From: Methanohalobium evestigatum Z-7303 | Lineage (GTDB): Archaea; Halobacteriota; Methanosarcinia; Methanosarcinales; Methanosarcinaceae | Assembly: GCF_000196655.1 (NCBI RefSeq) | Contig: NC_014253.1 | Coordinates: 310,001 to 374,000, forward strand | Reading direction: 5' to 3' | Length of the DNA: 64,000 bases | Shown: in pieces, positions 1-61,040 of the stretch | Numbering within the stretch: the first letter of the stretch is position 1 | Layout of the letters: each line of letters starts with the position of its first letter | Made by a program: the position numbers and the translations under genes | The notes under the pieces: model-generated | The model's database searches: none | What the model saw: only the letters and a program-made list of their open reading frames with translations | Told to the model about the DNA's origin: nothing

Positions 1-876
1 GGAGGACATGAAGATACAATACCTGTAAACAGAGCTCTTGCAAAAGCAGTTGAAGAAATGGGAGTAGGTATTGGTGTTGGAAGTCAGAGAGCAGCCATCG
101 AAGATCCAGCCCAAGAAGAATCATTCAGGGTAGTTCGTGATGAAGCTCCTAATGCTTTTATTTACGGTAATGTGGGAGCGGCACAGATAAAGGAATACGG
201 TGTAGAGGTTGTTGAAAAACTCGTGGACATGATAGACGCAGATGCCATGGCAGTTCATCTGAATTTTTTGCAGGAAGCAGTTCAACCTGAAGGAGATCGT
301 GATGCATCCGGAACACTGGAAGCAATCTCTGAAATAACTTCTCTTAATATACCGGTTATAGCAAAAGAGACTGGTGCAGGTATATCTCATGAAGATGCAG
401 TTCTTCTAAAAAATGCAGGAGTTTCAGCAATTGATGTTGGTGGTGTTGGTGGAACCAGTTGGTCGGGTGTGGAATTTTATCGTGCAAAGGACAGGAATGA
501 TTTAAGGTCACAGCTTCTTGGTGAAATATTCTGGGACCATGGGATACCTACAGCATCGGATTTAATCGAGTGTGATGTATCCCTGCCTCTTATTGCTACA
601 GGAGGTATAAGATCTGGGTTGGATATAGCCAAATCAGTTACAATGGGTGCAGATGTTGCCAGTGCCGCGTTACCATTTGTTGAACCAGCGTTAAAAAATG
701 AGCAGGAAGTAATTAATACATTATCAAATTTCATCTATCAATTAAAAGTATCCATGTTTCTCTGTGGATGTAAAACAGTAAGCGATTTACGTGATGTTCC
801 GGCAGTAGTAACCGGCTGGACTCGGGAATATCTTTTACAAAGAGGATTTGAAATCGATAAATTATCCATGCGGTAA
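1..876 (+). CDS. fni: Type 2 isopentenyl-diphosphate delta-isomerase (5'-truncated by window)
   Basis: FMN- and NADPH-dependent interconversion of isopentenyl and dimethylallyl diphosphate, feeding archaeal lipid synthesis. The frame is open from base 1 (GGHEDTIPVN, then GVGIGVGSQRAAI), so the true start lies upstream of the window and the ATG at 58 is internal. The glycine-rich VGSQR stretch, the IAKETGAGIS segment, the GVGGTSW phosphate-binding loop and IATGGIRSG match the TIM-barrel FMN-binding core of the family. It ends in TAA. It is followed after 109 bp by an RNase J gene and then a prenyl synthase, the usual methanogen isoprenoid cluster. Family assignment is confident; only the N-terminus is missing. 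Confidence 0.95.
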   Translation, partial: GGHEDTIPVNRALAKAVEEMGVGIGVGSQRAAIEDPAQEESFRVVRDEAPNAFIYGNVGAAQIKEYGVEVVEKLVDMIDADAMAVHLNFLQEAVQPEGDRDASGTLEAISEITSLNIPVIAKETGAGISHEDAVLLKNAGVSAIDVGGVGGTSWSGVEFYRAKDRNDLRSQLLGEIFWDHGIPTASDLIECDVSLPLIATGGIRSGLDIAKSVTMGADVASAALPFVEPALKNEQEVINTLSNFIYQLKVSMFLCGCKTVSDLRDVPAVVTGWTREYLLQRGFEIDKLSMR

Positions 877-985: not shown

Positions 986-2329
986 ATGACAGATATAGGT
1001 ATAATTGCAGTTGGTGGATACAACGAGATGGGTCGCAATATGACTGCGATTCGAGTAGGTGAGGACATAATCATTCTTGATATGGGACTCAGACTTGACA
1101 GAGTGCAGATTCACGAAGATGTTGAAATCAACAAGATGCACTCTCTTGAACTAATAGAAATGGGCGCGATACCTGATGACACTATCATGAAAGAGATCAA
1201 TGGCACAGTACGTGCGATTGTTTGTACACACGGTCATCTTGATCATATAGGGGCAATACCCAAATTGGCCCATAGGTACGCTGCACCCATAATAAGCACA
1301 CCTTATACTACATCACTTATCAAACAACAGATTGAGTCTGAAGTAAAATTTGGTGTCAAAAACAAAATCGTTACACTAAATGCTGGAGGAATTTATCAGG
1401 TAACTGAAGACATTTCTATAGAATTTATCAGAGCACAGCACAGCATAATTGATTGCGTTTTTGCAGTCATACATACTCCAGATGGGGCTATATTGTATGC
1501 ATGTGATTATAAACTGGACCGCATGCCTACAATGGGCGAACAACCAGATTTTGACCGTTTGAAATCACTTGGTGAAGAAGGCGTACTTGCAATGATTACT
1601 GAAAGTACCAATTCAGGGGTGCCCGGTAAAACTCCATCAGAACGTATAGCACATGACCTTGTCCGGGATGTACTTCTTGGAACAGAAGAATCAGATGTAG
1701 GAATGATAGTAACTACGTTTGCATCTCATATTGCACGTATAAATTCGATAATCAAATTTGCAGCTGAGATGGGAAGGACACCAGTGTTGATTGGTCGGGC
1801 AATGGATAACTATGTTTTAACCGCCAAAAAACTGGGGTATATAGAACTTCCAGATAACATAGAGGTTTATGGTGCGCGTAAAGACGTCGATAAAGCACTT
1901 AAAAAGATTGTAAATAAAGGCAAGGATAAATATCTTCCAATTGTTACAGGTCATCAGGGAGAACCGGGTGCAATACTTCCAAGAATTGCAAATGGAGAAA
2001 CCCCCTACACTATAGAATCAGGTGACAAAGTAATATTTTCTGCAAATGTAATCCCGAGTCCAATGACAGAAGGCAATCGGTATTCACTGGAAACGAAACT
2101 TAAAATGAGAGGAGCCAGACTTTTCACTGATGTACACGTTTCGGGACATGCATGCAAGGAAGATCACTGGGAACTGTTGAGGATTATAAATCCAGAACAT
2201 GTAATACCTGCTCATGGAACAATTAATATGCACAGTTCTTATATAGAAATGGCAGAAGATGCTGGCTATGTGCTCGGTAATACCCTGCACCTTTTAAGAA
2301 ACGGAGAAGAATTATATATAGAGGAATAA
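986..2329 (+). CDS. rnj: RNase J family metallo-beta-lactamase/beta-CASP ribonuclease
   Basis: A 447-residue metallo-beta-lactamase-fold nuclease of the archaeal RNase J group, which degrades RNA 5' to 3'. The zinc motif HGHLDH is at residues 82-87. Further metal or beta-CASP signatures are visible as QHSI, CDYK, the HQGEPGA segment, HVSGHA and a C-terminal PAHG. The start ATG at 986 follows a purine-rich GAGGATA. It lies between fni and idsA in the same direction, a conserved neighbourhood in methanogens. This suggests co-transcription rather than a role in isoprenoid chemistry. Confidence 0.93.
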   Translation: MTDIGIIAVGGYNEMGRNMTAIRVGEDIIILDMGLRLDRVQIHEDVEINKMHSLELIEMGAIPDDTIMKEINGTVRAIVCTHGHLDHIGAIPKLAHRYAAPIISTPYTTSLIKQQIESEVKFGVKNKIVTLNAGGIYQVTEDISIEFIRAQHSIIDCVFAVIHTPDGAILYACDYKLDRMPTMGEQPDFDRLKSLGEEGVLAMITESTNSGVPGKTPSERIAHDLVRDVLLGTEESDVGMIVTTFASHIARINSIIKFAAEMGRTPVLIGRAMDNYVLTAKKLGYIELPDNIEVYGARKDVDKALKKIVNKGKDKYLPIVTGHQGEPGAILPRIANGETPYTIESGDKVIFSANVIPSPMTEGNRYSLETKLKMRGARLFTDVHVSGHACKEDHWELLRIINPEHVIPAHGTINMHSSYIEMAEDAGYVLGNTLHLLRNGEELYIEE

Positions 2330-2353: not shown

Positions 2354-3331
2354 ATGATCAATATGAGCCTAATAGAAGAGATCAAAAACAGGAGTTCAAC
2401 GGTGGACAGGGCGATATAGGAGTATCTCCCTGTCCAGAGCCCAGAAGAGCTTTACAGAGCTTCAAGGTATTTACCTGATGCTGGTGGAAAACGTTTGAGA
2501 CCAGTCAGTACAATTCTTGCAGCGGAATCTGTGGGTTGTTCTGATATTAAATCCATTTTGCCTGCTGCAGTGTCGGTGGAACTGGTTCATAATTTCACAT
2601 TGATTCATGATGATATCATGGATAAAGATGATGTACGCAGAGGTATGCCATCGGTCCATGTGAAATGGAATGAAGCAGGTGCTATCCTTGCGGGTGATAC
2701 ACTTTATTCTAAAGCCTTCGATATATTGTCAGGTGTGGACAATGACCCTGCTCAGATTGTGAAGTGTGTCAATCTTTTATCCAGAACATGTACACAGATA
2801 TGTGAAGGTCAATGGATGGATATTAATTTTGAAGAATCTGATCAGGTATCAGAAGAAGAATATCTTGAAATGATTGAGAAAAAGACCTCCGTTCTTTACG
2901 CTACATCGATTAAAATAGGAGCATTACTTGGTGGAGCTTCTGATGAAGTAGCAGATGCATTGTATGATTTTGGGCGCATGATAGGTGTCAGTTTCCAGAT
3001 ATACGATGATGTACTTGATTTAATAGCACCTGAAGAAACACTTGGTAAAGTAAGAGGAAGTGACTTGAGAGAAGGTAAAATGACCCTTATAGCAATCCAT
3101 GCTTTCAATCAGGGTGTAGAGTTGGATATATTTGGAAAAGGTAATGTCACCCGGGATGAAATTGATAATTCTGTACAGGCACTTGAAAATGCAGGATCTA
3201 TTCAGTATGCTAAAGACCTGGCAATGTCATACCTTGAAAAGGGTAAATCAAAACTTGATGTTCTTGAAGACACCAGAGCCAAAAAATTACTTCTTGATAT
3301 TGCTGATTATATGGTTGAAAGGCCATATTAA
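2354..3331 (+). CDS. idsA: Geranylgeranyl/farnesyl diphosphate synthase with in-frame UAG (probable pyrrolysine)
   Basis: Trans-prenyltransferase making the isoprenoid chains of archaeal ether lipids. Read from ATG 2354, the frame meets one UAG at 2417-2419 (codon 22, in the context RAI-UAG-EYLPVQ) and then runs open to TAA, giving 325 residues, normal for the family. The substrate-binding GGKRLRP segment lies just after the UAG. The first Asp-rich motif DDIMD is near residues 86-90 and the second, DDVLD, near 218-222. The only start available downstream of the UAG (TTG 2495) would cut into GGKRLRP and leave a protein unlikely to work. Relatives usually carry Lys or another polar residue where the UAG sits. 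I therefore annotate one gene with UAG decoded as pyrrolysine. Recent mutation or sequencing error is the alternative. Confidence 0.88.
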
Positions 3332-8535: not shown

Positions 8536-9561
8536 ATGTCTGAAGTTGTAAAGCGGAAAGGTATAAAGGTATCAAAGAAAAAGGGAGAACCTACAAGGCG
8601 CGTACTTATAGAGAAGGGTTTACTTGATGCATCAGCGAAAATATTTTCTTCTAACGGTTTTTTATTCTTGCCGATCCTAAAACAACCCGTTAATTCCGAA
8701 TTTTTTGAAATTAAACAGGTGTCTAATGATTTTATTGTTGGCGATTATGAATTTGAATTAATGGAAAAATCTCCAACTTTTGAGGATTTATTGGGTTATA
8801 TTCCTCATTATGAAATTGTAGGTGATATTGCTATTGTTGATGAAGATGATGAATCTGAAGCCAGAAAAATTGCAGATGCAATTATAAGACTGCACCCAAA
8901 TATAAAAACCGTGGTGGGTACAACTGCGCCAATAGGTGGAGAATACAGAGTCAGAAACGTAAAAGTAATTGCAGGAGAAGACAGGACGGAAACCATACAC
9001 AAAGAACATGGTTGCAGATATGTGGTAGATATAGCAGAAGCTTATTTTACACCCAGATTATCAACAGAACGTGAACGTGTTCTTTCATTAATCAGTTCCA
9101 GAGATTTGGTTGTGGACATGTTTGCAGGTGTGGGACCTTACAGTATATTGATTGCTAAAAAGGTAGATGTTAAAAAGGTAATAGCAATTGATAAAAACCC
9201 GACAGCAGTTCGGTTTTTACGTAGAAACATAGAATTAAATTCTGTAAACAATGTTGTGGCAATAGAGGGTGATGCAGGTGATAAGGAACAGGAATTAGAA
9301 GGTATTGCAGACCATGTGATTATGAATTTGCCTCACAGTGCAGAGGAATTTCTGAATGCAGCTGTCAATATTACGAAACCCGGAGGAATCATTCATTATT
9401 ATGATATAACTCCTGAAGATGACCTTTTTGACAGTTCACTGGAACTTATAAGAAATGCTGCAAACTATAAAGGACGCCAAATCGAAGTTGTTAATAAACG
9501 GGTAGTGAGATCATATGCACCGCATGAATTCAATATATGCATAGAGGTAAAGGTCAATTAA
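8536..9561 (+). CDS. trm5: tRNA (guanine(37)-N1)-methyltransferase Trm5
   Basis: SAM-dependent methyltransferase making m1G37 in tRNA, needed for reading-frame maintenance. It is 341 residues. The N-terminal D1/D2 region carries KTVVGTTAPIGGEYRVRNVKVIAGEDRTETIHKE-type sequence in pieces, followed by a Rossmann fold with the SAM loop VVDMFAGVGPYSI and the signature NLPHSAEEFL (catalytic NLPHSA). It starts 1 bp after the LysE stop. Its last codons (GTCAAT-TAA) are inside the direct repeat duplicated at 24029, so the trm5 end and the following tRNA were copied together. Confidence 0.95.
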   Translation: MSEVVKRKGIKVSKKKGEPTRRVLIEKGLLDASAKIFSSNGFLFLPILKQPVNSEFFEIKQVSNDFIVGDYEFELMEKSPTFEDLLGYIPHYEIVGDIAIVDEDDESEARKIADAIIRLHPNIKTVVGTTAPIGGEYRVRNVKVIAGEDRTETIHKEHGCRYVVDIAEAYFTPRLSTERERVLSLISSRDLVVDMFAGVGPYSILIAKKVDVKKVIAIDKNPTAVRFLRRNIELNSVNNVVAIEGDAGDKEQELEGIADHVIMNLPHSAEEFLNAAVNITKPGGIIHYYDITPEDDLFDSSLELIRNAANYKGRQIEVVNKRVVRSYAPHEFNICIEVKVN

Positions 9562-9689
9562 TCTGGGCGAAATCGTTAAATTGTTACATCGATATTTTGG
9601 TGATGAAAAATCAAAACGCCGCCGTGGCTTAGTGGCAGAGCGGCTGATTCGTAATCAGCAAGTCGGGGGTTCGAATCCCCCCGGCGGCT
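9552..9689 (+). repeat. Direct repeat, left copy (attL-like, contains tRNA-Thr)
   Basis: 138 bp covering the last codons of trm5, the tRNA 5' flank and the whole tRNA-Thr gene. The partner copy is at 24029-24165. The two copies differ at five positions (four substitutions and one A indel), all in the 66 bp before the tRNA. The tRNA genes are identical and similarity stops right after the discriminator base. This marks the left end of an integrated element. Confidence 0.85.
9618..9689 (+). tRNA. tRNA-Thr (anticodon CGT)
   Basis: 72-nt cloverleaf without an encoded CCA. The acceptor arms GCCGCCG and CGGCGGC pair, the anticodon arm is GCTGA-TTCGTAA-TCAGC with anticodon CGT, and the T arm is GGGGG-TTCGAAT-CCCCC. 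The discriminator base is T. An identical gene lies at 24094-24165; the pair bounds the integrated element. Confidence 0.95.
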
Positions 9690-24028: not shown

Positions 24029-24165
24029 GGTCAATTAATTTGGGCGAAATTGTTAAATTGTAACATCAATATTTTGGTGATGAAAATCAAAACGCCGCCG
24101 TGGCTTAGTGGCAGAGCGGCTGATTCGTAATCAGCAAGTCGGGGGTTCGAATCCCCCCGGCGGCT
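24029..24165 (+). repeat. Direct repeat, right copy (attR-like, contains tRNA-Thr)
   Basis: 137-bp partner of 9552-9689. It begins with GGTCAATTAAT, the trm5 end sequence, although no trm5 gene precedes it here. It is thus a carried-in copy of the trm5-tRNA junction with five differences, all before the tRNA. Confidence 0.85.
24094..24165 (+). tRNA. tRNA-Thr (anticodon CGT), second copy
   Basis: Identical in all 72 bases to the gene at 9618-9689, with the same CGT anticodon loop TTCGTAA. It keeps about 65 bp of the same 5' flank, so it probably has its own promoter and is functional. It sits between two divergent integrase genes. Confidence 0.95.
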
Positions 24166-25476: not shown

Positions 25477-27063
25477 ATGAGTTTTAAGATGGATCTGGAG
25501 AAACTCATTGAATCTTGTGGTTACGGTATTCATTCTAAGAGGAGTAAATACGAGTACAATAAAAATTTTGATTCCAATGTTGAGGTTTTCGAATCTACTT
25601 ACATGAATAAAGACCGTAATTACAAAGACATTATAGAACCTGAATTTAGTGTGCACATGGAGCAGCCTGGTTTTGGAAAAACAGAATCTATGATTGATTA
25701 TATAAAATCAAATCCAAATGAAAAACACCTGATATTGGGACCAAGCCACGCATTCCTGGAATAGGTTAAAAAACGGTTAAATGTCAGAACCAAAATTTTC
25801 CGGGGTTTTGAAAAAGGCTGCAAGCGGTTACAAGAAGGAGATGACGAGGCCAGCTATCTGTTCAAAAAAATTGGTCACATTTCACCATCCCTTATTTGCA
25901 AATCACTGAAATGTCGAGGACGCTGTGAGTATCGAAATCAGTTCAAAAAATTGAGAAACAAAACCTATTCTAATTGCCTTTGCATGCCAATTCATTTTCT
26001 GTTTTATGTGGATATAGATTTTAACTCATTTGATAATATATTCATAGAGGAGACAATCAATAATAACAACCTGCGAAAACAATCACAAGTAGACTATTTA
26101 AAAGAGATATTTAAATTGAATAATGGGAACAAAAACATCAAACACCTTCTCAACAATATTCGAGATTGTATATTGGATTATGATTATGAAAAATTTTCAG
26201 AATTACAGAATGATTTCAGTAGTGTAATTTATGAGCACAATCGTTCTATACTAAATGATGACCGTAAAAGAAAGATGGATTTCTGCAATATTAATACAAA
26301 TGAACTATTTTTCCACCTGCTTTTTAACAGAACCTCTAATCCTAATCCACAAACTGCATGTGAATGGTTGATTTTTTATAAACAAATGGAATCTGGTAAA
26401 AATATTGTATATAATTCAGCATCTTTCAGGAAACATCAATTTTTTCATCATTTAAGGATGTTCAGGGAAATATTTCCTCAATATTCTCCAGTAATCAGGT
26501 TATACCATACTGAACACAGTAATCCAAACACACATATCATCCGGATGACCAAAGACCGAGCCATATATAAAAGCTGGATGTTGTCGTATTTTGATGATTA
26601 CAGTGATAGGCTATGGAAATTGGTTAAAAACAAACGATACAATCAAAATAAGGACGTTTGTTTTTTGACTTATAAATATTTGATAGAAAATAAATTGGAC
26701 AAACACGGGCTAACTAAAGAAAACACTATTTTTGGGTCACAGGCATTCTGGTTTGGGGCTGGTCATGGTATAAATACATATGAAGGGTTCGACGTTCTTA
26801 TCGTTTTTGGAGACCATTTAGCAGGGTCACAGCATTACAGAGAGTATTTTTTGGCATATTATCCAAGAGATGATTTACCTAATTTTGATGATGTCGATAA
26901 AGGCATCCCTCAGGATAGACGTTTATTGGAACAGTTCTATGCTTTTCAATTAGATATATATGATGCTGTTCACCGTTTGAGACCTCTCAAAAATAACATT
27001 ACAATTTATTGGTTTGGATTATACATACCTCCCGAGTTGTTGAACGAATTTAGTGTTGTTTAA
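25477..27063 (+). CDS. Helicase-like P-loop protein with in-frame UAG (probable pyrrolysine)
   Basis: One frame of 528 residues from ATG 25477 to TAA 27063, interrupted only by UAG at 25762-25764 (codon 96, context AFLE-UAG-VKKRL). Walker A is EQPGFGKTES (near residue 62), and a Walker B-like IFIEE follows later. A Cys-rich stretch (CKSLKCRGRC, then CLC) between them recalls the Fe-S or zinc clusters of XPD-type helicases. The C-terminal part has GINTYEGFDVLIVFGDH and YDAVHRLRPL, similar to helicase motifs V-VI. It follows the integrase by 35 bp, so it is probably part of the same element. UAG is one base from CAG (Gln), so a nonsense mutation is an alternative to pyrrolysine. The start is ATG 25477 or ATG 25489. 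Confidence 0.65.
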
Positions 27064-57848: not shown

Positions 57849-60800
57849 TTGCAAAATTACAGTGAACTATTAAGTACAACTGAATTATTAAATTCAGTTT
57901 TTGAATCCATAAAAGAAGGCGTTTGCCTTCATGAAATAATCTATGACTCTAATAATAATCCTGTGGATTACAGGATTATAGATACCAATCCTGCGTATGA
58001 ATCTATTATCGGTTTGAAAAGAGAAGACGTTTCTGGAAAGAAAGCCTCAGATATTTATGGTACAATTGAACCACCATACCTGCATCTCTATGCAAAAACA
58101 GCAGAAACGGGTGAAAAAGCATACTTTGAAACATTTTTCCCTCCACTTAACAAACATTTCAGTATTTCAGTAATATCCCCTGGAAGAGGAATGTTTATCA
58201 CAATATTTACCGACATCACGGGTCAGAAAAACATAGATAAAGAACTGGAAGCCATTTATGAAAACAGTCCTGTAGTGTCTATGGTAGTTGATTCTGATAG
58301 AAGAATTATTAAAATGAACAAAAGTGCCGAACAGTTCGCAGGAGCAATTTCTGATGAAGTTAAAGGAATGAAGGGTGGTGACGCTTTAAGGTGTCTACAT
58401 TCACTGGACGATCCTGATGGCTGCGGGTTTGGACCACACTGTAAATAGTGCACTGTGAGGAAAACTGTTCTTGACACGTTGGAAACTGGTAAAAGCCACT
58501 ACAATGTAGAAGCAAGTTTGCCGTTTATGATTGGTGGATGTATAAATCACCTTACCTTTCTCCTATCCACTTCACCCATCAAAGTTGAAAACGAGTCTAA
58601 AGTTTTAGTAAATTTCCTGGATATCAGCGAACGCAAAAAAGTTCAGGAAGATTTGCGAAAAGAAAAGAAGTTTTTTGAAAGAGTAGCAGAAACGAGTCCG
58701 ATTTCTATAACGCATTTAGACAAATCCGGAAACATTATATATGCTAACCATACCGCTGAGAAAGTTCTGGGTTTGTCTAAAAATGATATTAATAGAAGAA
58801 CTTATGATGATGTAAAATGGAAGATCACGGATTATGATGGAAATGATTTTCCACAGGATGAACTACCATTTGAACTGGTTAAAAAATATCATCAACCTGT
58901 ATACGATGTTCAGCATGCGATTGAATGGAAAAACGGCAAAAGGATATATTTGTCTATAAATGCTGCACCTATATTTGATAAATATGGTAATTTTGACGGC
59001 ATGATAGCAGCCATCGAAGATATAACAAAGCAGAAGAATACTGAATCCAACCTCGAACATGCTTTATATAATTCACATGAAAGAGAAAAAGAAATTAATG
59101 AACTTTTGAATGCAACCCGTACTATTCTGGAGGTAAATGATTTCAACACAGCAGCGAGGTACATCTTTGATTCATGTTCCAGACTTTTAGGAGCAAAAGC
59201 AGGATATGTATCCCTATTATCTGATACAGGAGATGAGAATGAAATTCTGTTTTTGGAGGATGGAGGAATGCCGTGTTCTGTTGATATTGATCTTCCAATT
59301 CCAGTAAGAGGTTTAAGTGCTGAAGTATCCCGTACTGGTGATGTGGTTTATGATAATGATTTCATGAACAGTAATAGGGTTAAATATATGCCGGAATGTC
59401 ATATGAATTTGCCTAATGTCCTTATATCTCCATTAACTGTGGATGGAAAAACATTAGGTTTTATGGGGTTTGCCTATAAAGAAGGGGGATTTACGGATAA
59501 TGATGCTCAACTTGCTAAAACGTTTGGTGAATACGCTGCAATAGCTTTGAAGAACAGCAAGGCGTTTCAAGCACTGGAGAAAAGCGAAGAGCGATATCGT
59601 TCTATATTTGAAACTGCTGCGAGTTTGATAACCTCTGTAGATGAAAACGGAACTATAGTTGATTGTAATAACCAGATAAAAAATATTCTCGGATATGAAA
59701 AGGAAGAGGTTATAGGTCAATCAATGACAAAAATAATTCATCCTGATTATGTTAACAAAAGTTTTGAAATACTCCATGAAATCCTCAACTACGGGTTTTC
59801 TTACAACAAAGAATACAAAATGGTCAGAAAAGACGGTGAACTTATTGATGTTCTTATAAATTCATCAGGTGTAGACAAAATCAACGGCAATTACAGCAGG
59901 ACGATTTGTATAATCAATGACATCACCAAAAGTAAAGAATTTGAACATGAGTTGAAGAAAAGTGAGGAAAAGTTCAGGAAAGTTACAGAACAGGCTGCTG
60001 ACGTTATCATAGCTTACGATTTTGACGGTAACATACTTTATGTAAACAACCTTGCCTGTGAAAAACTTGGATACACAAAAAATGAATTGTTGTCGATGAA
60101 TATTACAGATATCGACCCTGAAAATAATATCGAAACCTACAGAAAATACTGGTATGGTCTGTCACAGAATAATTCTGTACATATAGAAACATCCCGCAAA
60201 AGGAAAGATGGAAGCGTCTATCCTGCAGAATTAAGGATGACCCTTATAGATTTAAACGGAAAACCCGTTATTCTGGGGTTCTCCCGAGATATGACTGTCC
60301 AGAAAGAAGCCGAAGAGAACCTGATTAATGCCAAACTCGAAGCAGAGGCGGCAAGTCAGGCAAAAAGCGATATACTGGCAAATGTTAACCATGAGCTCAG
60401 AACACCTCTCACTTCCATAATAGGGTTTTCTGATGTCCTGCTTAAAGGCAAAGCAGGTGACTTAAATGAAAGCCAGAAAATGTATTTGTCCAGGGTGCAT
60501 AACAATGGTAAACACCTGCTTGACCTGATTACCGATATACTCGATTTATCAAAAATAGAATCCGGTAAATCCGGGCTTAATTATGAAAGAATATCCATCA
60601 TCGAACTTGTTAACGATTTAAAAGAGTATATACAACCTTTTGTTTCTAACAAAGTTCTGATACTGCATAGCCGTGTTGATTCTGGTCTAAACTACATATA
60701 CGCGGATTACATAAAAATCAAACAGATTTTATCCAATCTTTTGTATAATGCTGTAAAATTTACAGAGGAAGGGTCGATAACACTGGAAGTTAGCCAAAAC

Positions 60801-61040
60801 GAGGATGACGTTCAGTTCTCAGTCATCGATACCGGTATAGGAATACCAAAAGGTAGTCATGAAGCTATATTTGATTCATTCAAACAGCTGGACTCCGGAC
60901 CAGCCAGAAAATATCAGGGCACAGGACTTGGTCTTGCACTGGTTAACAAACTTGTGAATATGCATGGAGGACAAATATGGGTTGAAAGTGAAATTAAAAA
61001 GGGCAGCAGGTTTACTTTTACTATACCTGATAACAGATAA
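57849..61040 (+). CDS. Multi-PAS/GAF sensor histidine kinase with in-frame UAG (probable pyrrolysine)
   Basis: One frame of 1063 residues from TTG 57849 (AGGGGC upstream) to TAA, broken only by UAG at 58446-58448 (codon 200). Domain order: PAS (about 10-125), PAS (about 130-260) with the Cys motif CGFGPHCK-UAG-CTVR, PAS (about 273-400), GAF (about 420-570), PAS (about 580-700), PAS (about 705-825), HisKA with His848 (NVNHELRTP), HATPase (about 950-1060: NLLYNAVKF, DTGIGIP, GTGLGLAL). The UAG falls inside a conserved C-x-C-type motif in the middle of a PAS domain, where relatives have an ordinary residue. The next start is an internal ATG at 58563 or so, which would leave half a PAS domain. 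I therefore read UAG as sense, most likely pyrrolysine. Confidence 0.88.

Follow-up and report, generated by a model that had tools for sequence, protein, structure and literature searches.

The idsA gene of Methanohalobium evestigatum Z-7303 carries an in-frame TAG at codon 22. Our preferred reading, which was given a probability of about 0.8, is that this is a live, single-copy geranylgeranyl diphosphate (GGPP) synthase gene in which the TAG arose by one C-to-T change, with the UAG being read as pyrrolysine and full-length IdsA being made. The genome has two replicons and totals 2,406,232 bp; the window, which is the whole stretch of 64,000 nucleotides that was analysed, covers bases 310001-374000 of the larger one (2,242,317 bp). 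The gene, its TAG and its substrate-binding segment were located as follows.

Window 2354..3331, + strand: idsA, geranylgeranyl (short-chain, all-E) diphosphate synthase, identified by profile and structure matches; 325 codons with one in-frame TAG
Window 2417..2419, + strand: the in-frame TAG, codon 22 of idsA; CAG (Gln) in the sister species
Window 2483..2503, + strand: GGKRLRP substrate-binding segment, residues 44-50 of IdsA, 3' of the TAG and containing TTG 2495

The reading frame extended from the ATG at 2354 to a TAA at 3329-3331 and was otherwise open over its 325 codons; the position of the UAG at codon 22, ahead of GGKRLRP, was as described in the first-pass annotation. Orthologues aligned from residue 1-5 through to the end of the protein, being 65-72% identical in most of the family's other genera, and because this identity flanked the TAG on both sides a chance fusion of two open reading frames was ruled out. 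An in-frame UAG with conserved coding sequence on either side, one of the marks of a pyrrolysine protein, was therefore present. Another mark, a UAG position that is kept in relatives, was not seen: the sister species had CAG, and no TAG was found in idsA among the other 103 family matches of the 104 surveyed, so that the TAG was carried by one genome only. Conservation of the UAG among relatives is a trait of the catalytic methyltransferases and is not needed for neutral cases. One related metagenome-assembled genome (MAG) had a TAA in frame within idsA (G023:C1:289347-290315), and in another MAG, from the same genus as that one, a TAG was observed inside the second, GFPS-like synthase (G010:C36:6211-6780).

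The identity of the enzyme was supported by several lines of analysis. The idsA product matched PF00348 (4.5e-74) and contained HDDIMDKDD, QIYDDVLD and GGKRLRP with their key residues conserved; it thus had the domain, both Asp-rich motifs and the substrate-binding segment of a polyprenyl synthetase. The best structural match of the IdsA model (mean pLDDT 93) was 5JFQ, an archaeal GGPP synthase, with a TM score of 0.91. The NCBIfam equivalog cut-offs were missed (IdsA_Meth, 361 of 468 bits; gerfarn_diphsyn, 381 of 560; GGPP_syn, 294 of 500), and the C20 product is provisionally assigned through orthology to Methanosarcina mazei MM_1767 and by elimination.

The first-pass annotation had suggested a search for another prenyl synthase, and a Pfam search of the genome revealed two PF00348 polyprenyl synthetases only, idsA and one other. 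The latter (C1:229335-229955, by domain) was 33% identical to IdsA and its best NCBIfam model was GFPS_Meth, for which it scored 377 bits (cut-off, 600); it belongs to the geranylfarnesyl (C25)/methanophenazine branch. No second IdsA was found elsewhere in the genome. A GFPS-type synthase accompanied idsA in nearly all relatives in the family. In M. mazei, MM_0789 has been assigned to the synthesis of C25 geranylfarnesyl diphosphate, a precursor for methanophenazine, and MM_1767 is the probable source of the C20 compound for lipids (PMC3017947); like the analysed genome, M. mazei has two enzymes with divided labour, although its MM_1767, as in the rest of the family, has no TAG. An IdsA-type gene was detected in 86 of 86 good-quality genomes, with one match each at E <1e-60. 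Since the only other PF00348 protein was of the GFPS type and every good-quality genome had an idsA, idsA was taken to be the only candidate GGPP synthase of the genome and is presumably essential.

Two genes lie upstream of idsA on the same strand.

Window 58..876, + strand: probable FMN-dependent (type 2) isopentenyl-diphosphate isomerase, C-terminal part (PF01070); named from family and context
Window 986..2329, + strand: RNase J family beta-CASP ribonuclease, ending 24 bases before idsA

Elsewhere in the window, two genes for tRNA-Thr, both with anticodon CGT, were located within 15 kb of each other (window 9618-9689 and 24094-24165).

The history of the TAG was examined by comparison with the sister species, a Methanohalobium MAG (NZ_JAHENT01). 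The two idsA products were 97% identical over 325 amino acids, and the sister gene had CAG (glutamine) at codon 22. The two genes differed synonymously at 29 codons and non-synonymously at 10, the TAG being included in the 10; judged by outgroups, at least four of the other nine amino-acid differences arose on the sister branch. Over codons 23-325, dN was 0.014 and dS was 0.149 (dN/dS ~0.1), which shows that the gene downstream of the TAG has been under purifying selection. Since the sister has glutamine at codon 22, the TAG appears to reflect one recent C-to-T change from CAG in one lineage rather than an old functional pyrrolysine, and would have been acquired after the two species split. 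When about 45,000 codons were aligned between the two genomes, the idsA TAG was the sole stop that broke a recognised gene of the analysed genome; a second TAG match fell in a poorly conserved open reading frame that is probably not a gene. The reverse scan, for stops in the sister, yielded one TAG, in Trm5b, and one TGA, in an uncharacterised open reading frame. Interruptions among recognised genes were therefore TAG only, in small numbers. The sister Trm5b gene (tRNA guanine-37 methyltransferase; L059:12505-13527) is interrupted in frame by TAG at codon 302 (of 341); the analysed genome (orthologue at window 8536-9561) has CTG there. Each species thus has one private TAG in a housekeeping gene, idsA or Trm5b, 6 kb apart; a Trm5-like paralogue is present elsewhere in both genomes.

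Among homologues with >50% identity, the codon 22 column was variable, comprising E 13, D 11, Q 6, G 4, N 4, A 2, S 2, P 2, R 1, H 1 and K 1. The expectation that homologues would commonly have lysine or a polar residue here held for polar residues, mostly Glu, Asp and Gln, but not for lysine, which occurred once. In the IdsA model the first helix spanned residues 4-24, which places residue 22 near the helix end, and pLDDT was ~96 at residues 21-30. Because the column is so variable, a long side chain at residue 22 is plausible.

The genes for pyrrolysine synthesis and decoding were identified at two loci.

C1:298792-299508: PylS gene
C1:300257-300328: tRNA-Pyl, anticodon CTA
C1:894226-897159: PylD, PylC and PylB genes

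With pylT, pylS, pylB, pylC and pylD all present, the genome has the full set expected of a pyrrolysine-encoding organism, and the tRNA-Pyl and PylS genes lie 12 kb upstream of idsA. The separation of pylTS from pylBCD agrees with the description of M. evestigatum as an exception in this respect (PMC9499178). Two mtmB copies in the genome had an in-frame TAG. A third MtmB homologue (C1:1469862-1471208) had none, and may be compared with the non-pyrrolysine MtmB homologue in PMC13044021. The aRF1 gene was present and intact; termination at UAG is still possible, and UAG may on this account be ambiguous rather than strictly reassigned.

Stop codon usage was determined for open reading frames of at least 150 amino acids in 454 contiguous kb, about one fifth of the genome. 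The 336 long open reading frames ended in TAA (229), TGA (103) or TAG (4). In two relatives, by comparison, the share of open reading frames with TAG as their stop was 13% (G005) and 16% (G006); the Fisher test for TAG vs TGA gave p 6e-6. TAG use was also low, at 1.5-3.6%, in three other sampled relatives, and scarcity of TAG as a stop is thus not in itself unique to Methanohalobium. Of the four TAG-ended frames, the one at window 57849-61040 encodes a PAS/GAF sensor histidine kinase of 1063 codons; its TAG is at codon 200, the frame continues for 863 codons and it is open only when TAG is read. In another, the frame continued for 87 codons past the TAG. The remaining two looked terminal in the 454 kb scanned. 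One (C1:308984-309787) has its TAG at C1:309773-309775, followed four codons on by a TAA; the sister has TAA at the TAG position, and readthrough there could be harmless. The other is a TnpB-like transposase with a second TAG 13 codons later. A small number of TAGs, that at C1:309773-309775 included, still resemble genuine stops, so UAG may be ambiguous and part of the IdsA product may be cut at residue 21.

Over the same 454 kb, TAG was both rare as a stop and present inside genes, the pattern of a largely reassigned genome. Other internal TAGs were also recorded, many TAGs close to the start of a reading frame being left out of the count as artefacts of upstream extension. A 528-codon open reading frame (window 25477-27063) had TAG at codon 96 and matched nothing in Pfam or NCBIfam. 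A TnpB-like transposase gene (C1:245976-247292) had TAG at codon 75 where a 95% identical sister copy had CAG, the same change as in idsA. In the open reading frame at C1:431289-431723, the TAG at codon 27 was also TAG in the sister; this may be a conserved pyrrolysine or an upstream artefact. The best reading of codon usage is that TAG would be mostly a sense codon, for pyrrolysine, in Methanohalobium, and that the idsA TAG would have been gained by near-neutral drift.

A structural signal in the mRNA was also considered, since the idsA TAG falls within a conspicuous secondary structure.

Window 2401..2442, + strand: very stable hairpin spanning the idsA TAG, which lies at the apical base pair and loop

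The minimum free energy of this hairpin was -23.0 kcal/mol, and an equally stable one was found in 1 of 35,968 coding 46-nt windows in 454 kb. The sister idsA formed the same hairpin (-20.7) around its CAG; folding of five other relatives did not reveal the hairpin, and nothing comparable was found at five other internal TAGs. Its presence around a sense codon in the sister and its absence from those five TAGs, together with the melting of the hairpin during decoding, led us to reject it as a pyrrolysine signal. No PYLIS-like element was apparent 3' of the UAG, as the 110 nt from the TAG folded no better than shuffled sequences (z -0.36). In archaea, pyrrolysine insertion needs no mRNA signal and is governed by competition between Pyl-tRNA and the release factor (reviews including PMC9499178).

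Together, the sole GGPP synthase candidate, the complete pyl set and the near absence of TAG as a stop make readthrough the best explanation and support the proposal of the first-pass annotation. In the mechanism envisaged, the ribosome would decode the idsA UAG with PylS-charged tRNA-Pyl, without a special mRNA signal, and would produce full-length IdsA whose N-terminal helix contains pyrrolysine, along with some product terminated at residue 21. The TAG would be tolerated because codon 22 accepts many residues and Methanohalobium has hardly any need of UAG as a stop. That pyrrolysine is inserted, how efficiently the codon is read through and that growth depends on this are matters that we infer from the genome.

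Other explanations were weighed against this one. The base may have been miscalled in sequencing, or the TAG may have arisen by mutation in the sequenced culture alone, the natural gene having CAG; the sister codon and the confinement of the TAG to one of 104 genomes are consistent with such an event. Errors or random damage would be expected to generate TAA and TGA as well, but comparison of recognised genes with the sister gave TAG alone. Similar internal TAGs also occurred in the sister and elsewhere in the analysed genome, whose assembly is near-closed (2 contigs, 99.89% complete), all of which makes this explanation unlikely. Less likely again is decoding of the UAG mainly by near-cognate tRNAs (Gln, Lys, Tyr) in place of tRNA-Pyl. 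The two modes of decoding look the same in the sequence and the ancestral residue was probably Gln or Glu; against this, the genome has a dedicated CUA tRNA together with its synthetase 12 kb upstream of the gene, mtmB needs the same decoding, and a cognate tRNA should outcompete near-cognates.

It is also conceivable that idsA is an early pseudogene, or encodes a 21-residue peptide only, with C20 chains being supplied by the second PF00348 protein. The 303 intact codons 3' of the TAG, with their dN/dS of ~0.1, and the geranylfarnesyl (C25, methanophenazine) type of that second synthase, which is found beside idsA in nearly all relatives, render this very improbable. The least probable explanation is a restart downstream of the TAG that would yield a shortened active enzyme. 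The first helix may be partly dispensable, given that MAG orthologues G071 and G053 matched only from residue 21 or 24, but under translation table 11 the sole restart in the frame is TTG 2495 (codon 48), which lies inside GGKRLRP, where G44, G45 and K46 are invariant. No in-frame ATG, GTG, TTG, CTG, ATT, ATC or ATA was found between the TAG and codon 48. Automated annotation of idsA is likely to be in error, giving either a pseudogene or a truncated open reading frame with a TTG start.

Readthrough of idsA as pyrrolysine would resemble that of mtmB, mtbB and mttB of the Methanosarcinaceae, which also have an in-frame UAG and use the same tRNA-Pyl and PylS. In those genes, however, pyrrolysine is conserved and catalytic, whereas the idsA TAG occurs in one species, in a variable column where no catalytic role is expected. 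A closer parallel is the citrate synthase gene Mmah_0479 of Methanohalophilus mahii, which has a single UAG and was first called a pseudogene, and for which pyrrolysine was proposed by the authors (PMC3017947). Like idsA, it encodes a needed housekeeping enzyme in the same archaeal family; unlike idsA, it serves an amino-acid precursor pathway and not membrane lipids, and its pyrrolysine is a proposal. A needed housekeeping gene with an internal UAG is thus already known from this family, and idsA is a further strong case. Genome-wide predictions of pyrrolysine genes have included M. evestigatum among the genomes screened and discussed neutral gain of UAG, in a main text where the words 'geranyl' and 'polyprenyl' are absent (PMC3639795). 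According to its authors, the method is unable to predict genes whose homologues all lack pyrrolysine, and a single-lineage case like idsA would therefore be missed. The appeal of the idsA case is that the enzyme is single-copy and stands at the root of membrane lipids, and that the sister keeps the likely ancestral codon.

An archaeal 'Pyl code', in which all TAG codons specify pyrrolysine, was reportedly described in 2025. Methanohalobium resembles it in that TAG is scarce as a stop and appears to be sense in ordinary genes. Whether Methanohalobium has in effect reassigned UAG genome-wide is evenly balanced in our estimation; if so, TAGs would be drifting into essential genes unrelated to methylamines (idsA, Trm5b), lipids and growth on any substrate would need pyrrolysine, and the pyl genes could no longer be lost. 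Lipid synthesis would be tied to pyrrolysine supply and, if the preferred reading is true, pyrrolysine is required by an essential enzyme that has no part in methylamine metabolism. The gene would then offer a test of pyl essentiality on methanol, and of whether UAG is sense or ambiguous in Methanohalobium. It would also illustrate the drift of a codon from stop to sense, in which use as a stop drops first and neutral TAGs then enter ordinary genes.
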